From assembly GCA_027451445.1 (NCBI GenBank), contig DAIDJG010000062.1, forward strand, positions 1 to 49,942: DNA of 49,942 bases, written 5' to 3'. The stretch is from Singulisphaera sp. Its GTDB lineage: Bacteria > Planctomycetota > Planctomycetia > Isosphaerales > Isosphaeraceae. The position numbers were made by a program, and so were the translations under genes. The notes beneath the pieces are model-generated. The model was not told the DNA's origin and did no database searches. It worked only from the letters and a program-made list of their open reading frames with translations. Positions 10,829 through 46,543 of the stretch are shown here, one piece after another; the stretch's first letter is position 1, and each line of letters opens with the position of its first letter.

Positions 10829-11323
10829 CTATCGTCGTCGTTTCCGGCGAGACTTTGAAACGTGAGTTTCAGTGAACCCGTAAGGAGGAGCGTTTCGGAG
10901 TCGTATCGTGAAATGCCGCTGCGGACCGTCAAACGTCACTCGAAAGTGATCGAGGAAGTGGGCGTGTCCCCAGAGTGAACCCTGCGTTCGATCTTTGGAG
11001 AAGCCGACGATGGCGGTCCACCGCCATTCCACGTTATCGAGACGAATCCCCAGACGCACCTGCCCGTAAGTGACTTCATGGCGTTCGCCTCCGAATCCGA
11101 TGAGGAATTCCTTGCCGGGAATCCAGACCGGCGCAACGACCTCTGACACCTCAAACGGCAAAAGGCACTCGACCGCACCTGTGTCGAGGGTTCCCAGGCA
11201 ATCGAGGGCCGCCTCGGTATTCTGTACGCTGCTGACGTGGACGGCCAACTCCGGCACGTAGATCCGTTGCGAGCGCTCTGCGGGCGATGGCTTTACCCAT
11301 TGAGGGCTATAGGCAAATCGCAT
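10829..11323 (-). CDS. Retropepsin-like aspartic protease domain protein
   Basis: A 164-residue protein with a single retropepsin-like (clan AA) half. The catalytic motif DTG sits in LGTLDTGAVECLLP near residue 47. The second conserved part, LWGHAHFLDHFRVTFDG, lies near residues 118-134 and matches the (I/L)LG-type motif and following strand of the family. Such proteins need to dimerise to form an active protease. The ATG starts two bases after the stop of the upstream DUF5678-like gene, so the two form a tight pair. A second copy of this pair is at 46077-46543, where the protease is cut short. Substrate and role are unknown. Confidence 0.75.
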   Translation of the reverse strand: MRFAYSPQWVKPSPAERSQRIYVPELAVHVSSVQNTEAALDCLGTLDTGAVECLLPFEVSEVVAPVWIPGKEFLIGFGGERHEVTYGQVRLGIRLDNVEWRWTAIVGFSKDRTQGSLWGHAHFLDHFRVTFDGPQRHFTIRLRNAPPYGFTETHVSKSRRKRRR

Positions 11324-11325
11324 TG

Positions 11326-11583
11326 CTAATGGGTCTGCGTCGGTTCAAGTTCTCGAAGAAACTGAAAGGTGACTTCCCTCAGTCCCCGACTCTCGACGAA
11401 ATTCTTAAGCTCGATCAAAGATTCATTCGCGGCGATGATTTGATGGTCTTTTCCCCAGGCCACCCACTTGCCCGCGAGTTCAATCGGTGGCGCCGGGTAC
11501 GCGGGGACGCGTGTCTTTAGGCGACCAGCCTTCAGGTTCCGCACTCGTCTCGCGGTCGAACCGATTCGCAGCGGTTTCGGCAT
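11326..11583 (-). CDS. Small DUF5678-like protein paired with a retropepsin
   Basis: An 85-residue basic protein. The centre reads ELAGKWVAWGKDHQIIAANESL (key residues G-K-W-V-A-W), followed by a helix (LIELKNFVESRG) and a strand (REVTFQFL). This is the pattern I associate with DUF5678-type proteins; the family name is from memory and moderately certain. The first 30 residues are rich in Arg and Lys. AGGGA lies six bases before the ATG. It is translated just ahead of the retropepsin gene (2-base gap). The equivalent protein at 46077-46397 shares LAGKWxAW and also precedes a retropepsin, which supports a functional pair. Confidence 0.65.
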   Translation of the reverse strand: MPKPLRIGSTARRVRNLKAGRLKTRVPAYPAPPIELAGKWVAWGKDHQIIAANESLIELKNFVESRGLREVTFQFLRELEPTQTH

Positions 11584-46017: not shown

Positions 46018-46076
46018 GCGTCGCTTGGGACCTTCCTGCATGATTGGTGGGAGACACTGAGTCGCCAGGAGGTCCC

Positions 46077-46397
46077 ATGTCGCATTTGTATTCAAACGCG
46101 GAGAGCAACAGTCGCCGTCTATCCCTCGAGGAGCGCTGGGAAACGCTGATGTCGCGCTTCAGGCGACGTCCGAGGCGCAAGCGAGGGAAGGCAATCGAGA
46201 TCCAACATCGTGAGTCCGTGCCCCTTGCGCTTGCTGGGAAGTGGATCGCCTGGTCGCCTGACGGACTTCGCATCGTTCTTTCAGCAAACACTCTGAAAGA
46301 GGTGTGTGCGGAGGCGAAACGCCTCGGTTACGAGGACTTGATCTACGAGGGCATACCCAGACATTTCCGCAACCGTGGGGTTGAGATAGACTCGTGA
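46077..46397 (+). CDS. DUF5678-like protein paired with a truncated retropepsin
   Basis: A 106-residue basic protein. The centre reads LALAGKWIAWSPDGLRIVLS followed by a helix (TLKEVCAEAKRLG) and IYEGIP. This matches the protein at 11326-11583 in pattern and position. The N-terminal half is Arg/Lys-rich (RFRRRPRRKRGK). AGGAGG lies four bases before ATG 46077. Its stop overlaps a GTG (GTGA, 46394-46397) that begins the retropepsin reading frame, so the two were one translational unit. Confidence 0.65.
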   Translation: MSHLYSNAESNSRRLSLEERWETLMSRFRRRPRRKRGKAIEIQHRESVPLALAGKWIAWSPDGLRIVLSANTLKEVCAEAKRLGYEDLIYEGIPRHFRNRGVEIDS

Positions 46398-46543
46398 GGC
46401 TTGATTACGCGGAATTTGACGTTTCTCCGAGTCCGGCTGATCGCTCTCATCACATTTGGCGGCCGGTCGTTCCGCTCCAGGTGTTCGGCCTGTCAGGAAA
46501 GCTCCAATTGACGGGGATCCTCGACACCGGCTCAGTGGAGTAG
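46394..46543 (+). pseudogene. Truncated retropepsin-like gene, stopped just after DTG
   Basis: A 49-codon frame starts at a GTG that overlaps the upstream stop by four bases. It reads VRLDYAEFDVSPSPADRSHH and ends LTGILDTGSVE before TAG. It aligns with the start of the 164-residue copy at 10829-11323 (MRFAYSPQW, PSPAERSQRIY, LGTLDTGAVE). The catalytic DTG is the last conserved part; everything after it, including the second motif, is missing. Downstream sequence has no resemblance to the rest of the family. A mutated or decayed gene is most likely. A small peptide made on purpose cannot be excluded. Confidence 0.7.

Follow-up and report, generated by a model that had tools for sequence, protein, structure and literature searches.

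Genes for small DUF5678-like proteins lie directly upstream of genes for certain single-domain retropepsins, and the two proteins are very probably functional partners. We found this arrangement in the window, the whole 49,942-nucleotide stretch of Singulisphaera DNA that was analyzed, which harbors two copies (Table 1). The initial annotation had proposed the small protein as a partner of the protease, a proposal supported by conservation of the pairing far outside the window and by natural fusions of the two proteins.

Two copies of the gene pair in the window

For copy 1, a small protein with the motif LAGKWVAW followed two bases later by a retropepsin had been annotated at 10829-11583, and both open reading frames were confirmed. 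The small gene ends with a TAG stop codon, which is separated from the protease ATG at 11323 by the dinucleotide CA (2-nt gap), and the translated protease contains the sequence LGTLDTG. The locus is not conserved, as homologues of the flanking genes elsewhere sit on contigs that lack the pair. Alignment did not reveal a clean empty site.

The same gene order had been described for copy 2 (46077-46543). There, the order and the small gene stood up to inspection, but the protease is only a remnant. In the sister species (G001:C329), an intact protease is present at the same place, ahead of the same hydrolase gene, and DNA comparison with this syntenic pair showed that about 276 bp have been lost in the window. 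The remaining reading frame starts with GTG at 46394, in a 4-nt overlap with the small-gene stop, retains LTGILDTG, and ends after about 49 codons with a TAG stop (46541-46543). Because of this truncation, only copy 1 is a complete pair; in copy 2, the small gene stands beside a dead protease.

Table 1. Location in the window of the two gene pairs and of their sequence motifs.
Feature	Position	Strand	Size or basis
Copy 1 small protein, DUF5678-like, LAGKWVAW	11326..11583	-	ORF, 85 aa
Copy 1 retropepsin-like protein	10829..11323	-	ORF, 164 aa
Copy 1 protease catalytic D47-T48-G49	11177..11185	-	D47 and G49 invariant in 17 paired proteases
Copy 1 protease second motif L117-W118-G119	10967..10975	-	G119 invariant in 17 paired proteases
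Copy 2 small gene, ribosome-binding site AGGAGG	46067..46072	+	sequence
Copy 2 small protein, DUF5678-like, intact	46077..46397	+	ORF, 106 aa
Copy 2 protease remnant, LDTG retained	46394..46543	+	DNA comparison with intact syntenic G001:C329

Identification of the protease as a retropepsin

By sequence, the copy 1 protease did not match any Pfam family, including PF13650, PF13975 and PF00077, where the curated score is a database threshold and not a biological definition of a retropepsin. The protein is homologous to the proteases on contigs C68 and C222 of the same genome, and the C68 homologue was recognized as Asp_protease_2 (PF13650) with 34.4 bits, above the cut-off. A structural model of copy 1 was of moderate quality (mean pLDDT 60). 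Its best structural matches were the proteases of FIV, EIAV, RSV and HIV (Z 5-6.7), and Foldseek alone gave no significant hit with this model.

Across 17 diverse paired proteases, three residues were invariant, namely the D and G of the catalytic motif and the G of the second motif. Variants of the catalytic triplet (DCG and DTT) occurred in two relatives, and the second motif, LWG in copy 1, was mostly LLG among relatives. The identity of the copy 1 protease as a retropepsin therefore follows from its relatives (C68), the invariant D/G/G columns, and a model that is nearest to retroviral proteases. Three hallmarks of single-domain clan AA proteases are thus present: D-[TS]-G flanked by hydrophobic residues, a hydrophobic-hydrophobic-Gly motif and, in the model, the retropepsin fold.

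Relationship of the small protein to DUF5678

The label DUF5678-like is sound with regard to homology, but not with regard to the curated cut-off of PF18929 (23.2 bits), which both copies missed (12.7 bits for copy 1, 15.5 bits for copy 2). A profile of the subfamily that includes the small proteins of the window aligned over the core with a profile of above-cut-off DUF5678 proteins (E 3.2e-6), the two profiles having zero sequences in common. Like Pfam DUF5678 members, the window proteins have a small core with a GKYVA or GKWVAW motif, and the above-cut-off members are likewise paired with retropepsins. Apart from the lower scores, the window proteins differ by a basic N-terminal extension. 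Long, variable and basic N-terminal tails precede the conserved core in several small proteins (copy 2: RFRRRPRRKRGK), and are missing from many pairs, including those of phages.

AlphaFold predicted a strand-strand-helix-strand core for the copy 2 small protein (pLDDT about 90). A fold search with this model did not return a clear known match, leaving a HicB-like fold, at which a sequence pattern had hinted, unsupported. Likewise, Pfam identified no antitoxin-type DNA-binding domain in the small proteins. In the part of the full-text literature covered, we found no paper on the function of DUF5678, and the single paper naming it was unrelated.

Conservation of the pairing in Planctomycetota

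The Singulisphaera genome contains further intact pairs on contigs C68, C222 and C455, the last of a divergent subtype, as well as lone small genes on C340 and C439. In a set of 59 relatives, a small gene was located upstream of all nine strong protease matches, directly adjacent in eight cases and at a distance of 359 bp in one. A survey of 246 Planctomycetota genomes identified DUF5678 above the cut-off in 24 places, five without a protease and 19 paired with a retropepsin. The paired places include two in-frame fusions, both in genome G094 (L061 and L071). These are single ORFs with 206-aa open frames, and both domains exceed their cut-offs (32.2 bits for DUF5678, 46.8 bits for Asp_protease_2). 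Recurrence of the pair in many genomes excludes a chance origin of the pairing. Pairwise identities of the partners were correlated as well (r 0.55, compared with a permutation maximum of 0.26), which co-inheritance of neighbors alone would also yield.

Pairing is not a general feature of retropepsins. Universal pairing was considered and rejected, as proteins of the MG-start DSGATYTLLP type are mostly solitary. Since other retropepsin subfamilies occur mostly alone, the pairing is specific for subfamilies. The two families are mostly apart when the retropepsin superfamily is considered, with 31 of 37 loci for PF13650-type single-domain retropepsins lacking a recognizable DUF5678-like neighbor, but not when the question is asked for the present subfamily (9/9) or for DUF5678 (19/24). 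Pairing thus characterizes DUF5678 and particular retropepsin subfamilies. When the genome collection was searched with the protease of the window and with a consensus DUF5678, almost no useful relatives emerged because the peptide patterns were poorly chosen, and one apparent relative (L079) was a false positive.

Several other arrangements were seen in the course of this survey. Genome G196 has at least 13 retropepsin matches, many of them beside small proteins of differing subtypes, a lineage-specific expansion. At L065 (G126:C161), the ORF downstream of a DUF5678 protein (203-aa frame) encodes 235 aa and is no retropepsin, which suggests that DUF5678 has other partners. At L229, L235 and probably also L022 and L030, retropepsins of a VDSGxxxNVLPYDIG subfamily are located behind an unrelated small protein of roughly 70-90 aa, which is apparently helical, overlaps the protease gene by 4 to 8 nt, and belongs to no Pfam family.

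Related pairs on cyanobacterial plasmids and in phages

The cyanobacterial branch was entered through weak plasmid matches that were then followed up; other than these, plasmid and phage searches with the planctomycete and phage-contig sequences found nothing. In the cyanobacterial version, the gene for a 105-aa protein has a 4-nt overlap with that of an annotated aspartyl protease, and the small gene was adjacent in 22 of 22 plasmid records with the protease. The small family was related to DUF5678 by profile comparison (E 6e-6). The pair was also found in four IMG/VR phage contigs (L154, positions 2301-2923, L155, L156 and L158) as a separate subtype with a 1-nt overlap. Its neighbors there were terminase, integrase, tail, replication-initiation and portal-like genes.

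The proposal of a mobile or selfish module is supported for the relatives by their carriage on plasmids and phage contigs. In the window, no mobile gene was identified beside either copy, and evident mobile genes are likewise missing next to most chromosomal pairs.

The plasmid search that produced the weak cyanobacterial matches also returned Rhizobium LysR matches. On Gloeothece plasmids (L162 and L163), lone small genes were found beside genes for Uma2 endonuclease, AbiEi-type antitoxin, integrase or TnpB, in a neighborhood rich in mobile and defense-type genes.

One-sided decay of the pair

The small gene was retained while the protease had decayed in copy 2 of the window, in G025 C188, in G004 C264, and on seven cyanobacterial plasmids. 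On four of these seven plasmids, the start of an N-terminal protease stub coincides exactly with the overlap. These stubs have the right position and frame, but they are short and each carries little statistical weight by itself. Among the pairs surveyed, no intact protease of the paired type was seen without a small gene. Damaged protease-side remnants lacking the small gene were present (a fragment in G024:C1 and a frameshifted gene in G105:C91).

The decay cases were partly ascertained via the small gene, which may moreover survive passively because the protease gene lies downstream and offers a larger target. Passive survival and ascertainment thus partly explain the bias. The dN/dS of the retained small genes was about 0.2, a value that is no proof of continued selection because it is pairwise and partly saturated.

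On contig C429 of the same genome, an AF2212-like gene overlaps a retropepsin gene with an in-frame TAG (L224, 694-909 and 315-707). The upstream gene scored just under the PF01954 cut-off (20.6 versus 21.6 bits). We take AF2212-like proteins (PF01954) to be an antitoxin-type family. The locus echoes the one-sided decay, with a different partner.

Comparison with known systems

RimB and RloA of Pseudomonas are characterized bacterial retropepsin-like proteases with operon partners (PMC11957791, PMC12239564). Like the paired proteases, they are single-domain clan AA aspartic proteases, and their action is governed by operon partners. However, their operons contain an ATP-grasp ligase (RimK or RloC) together with the cyclic-di-GMP phosphodiesterase RimA or the transmembrane protein RloB, and no DUF5678. 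Their roles in stress and ribosome modification are conserved, whereas the pairs described here are patchy and found on plasmids and in phages.

The layout also resembles type II toxin-antitoxin systems, with two small co-directional genes, the presumed inhibitor first, that overlap by 4 nt or 1 nt or are separated by a 2-nt spacer. Patchy distribution, multiple copies, relatives on plasmids and prophages, an alternative partner (C429), and orphan upstream genes add to the resemblance. In contrast, the role of toxin would fall to an aspartic protease, and no DNA-binding domain was found in the small proteins, unlike in many type II antitoxins. To our knowledge, no aspartic protease acts as a type II toxin. 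No paper on a retropepsin with an antitoxin, or on the DUF5678-retropepsin pair, was found in the portion of full-text literature covered.

Several paired retropepsins matched models of the PADLOC candidate defense families PDC-M08B and PDC-M52B (best E 5e-9 and 6e-7, respectively), with 5/17 and 4/17 members for these best models, and the window protease matched the candidate models weakly (E 0.0033). As none of 16 small proteins matched any PADLOC model, these candidate systems apparently have different partners. The partial literature covered contained no paper naming these candidate families.

Pepsinogen-type zymogens have an N-terminal segment ahead of a two-domain aspartic protease. The layout of the natural fusions is similar, with an N-terminal segment before an aspartic protease that it may restrain. 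In most pairs, however, the segment is a separate protein, and the protease is a single-domain retropepsin and not a two-domain pepsin.

Competing interpretations of the pairing

We see about an even chance that the small protein acts as a brake on the protease, the pair being a toxin-antitoxin-like or "split zymogen" module. The small protein could instead be an adaptor or activating subunit that recruits substrates or senses a ligand within a regulated proteolytic complex, which we regard as rather unlikely. Strong co-occurrence and correlated divergence agree with such a complex, and RimB with RimK (PMC11957791) and RloA with RloB and RloC (PMC12239564) provide examples of proteases acting with operon partners. 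The in-frame fusions of G094 suit a permanent subunit and a zymogen alike. However, the small gene has repeatedly outlasted the protease, which is hard to reconcile with a subunit that has no other job, and carriage by phages and plasmids together with an antitoxin-like alternative partner points to a toxin-antitoxin-like logic. One-sided decay and the AF2212-like replacement partner thus favor a restrained protease over an adaptor.

The one-to-one pairing and the long, variable basic tails of several small proteins could also indicate a dedicated substrate, in which a cut in the N-terminal tail frees a signal or effector. This is improbable, as conservation resides in the folded core and not in a linear cleavage motif, and the tails are variable and often absent. 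Least probable is that the genes are mere operon neighbors without functional or physical contact. Several DUF5678 genes do stand alone, for instance on C340 and C439 of the same genome, but conservation of order and overlap in two phyla and in phages, the fusions, and the correlated divergence speak against it.

Proposed mode of action

Gene order, overlap, conserved active-site motifs, co-occurrence, correlated divergence, fusions, relatives on plasmids and phages, and repeated protease loss with the small gene kept were all observed, and restraint of the protease by the small protein is inferred. In the proposed mechanism, the upstream gene would encode the small protein, built on a strand-strand-helix-strand core, and the downstream gene, with its start overlapping or touching the small-gene stop, would provide a single-domain retropepsin that is presumably a homodimer. 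Protease synthesis is probably coupled to translation of the upstream gene, and we propose that each protease would therefore be born beside its partner. The small protein would most likely bind the protease and suppress its activity, in the manner of an antitoxin or of a propeptide in trans. Some signal would then free the protease, which would be toxic and act on targets of its own.

More tentatively, the pairs may represent an undescribed and widespread toxin-antitoxin-like or phage-conflict class, in which DUF5678, as a propeptide in trans, would silence an HIV-protease-like toxin. Alternative small partners, and the occasional fusion that yields a conventional zymogen, would belong to the same class.

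Implications

With the present findings, DUF5678 gains a concrete and testable role as the usual neighbor of a subset of retropepsins from prokaryotes. Should the small protein prove to be an inhibitor, retropepsins would have a family of natural inhibitors that is genetically encoded, and the enzymes of bacterial and phage conflict would include an aspartic protease. This would also inform the use made of single-domain retropepsins beyond retroviruses.
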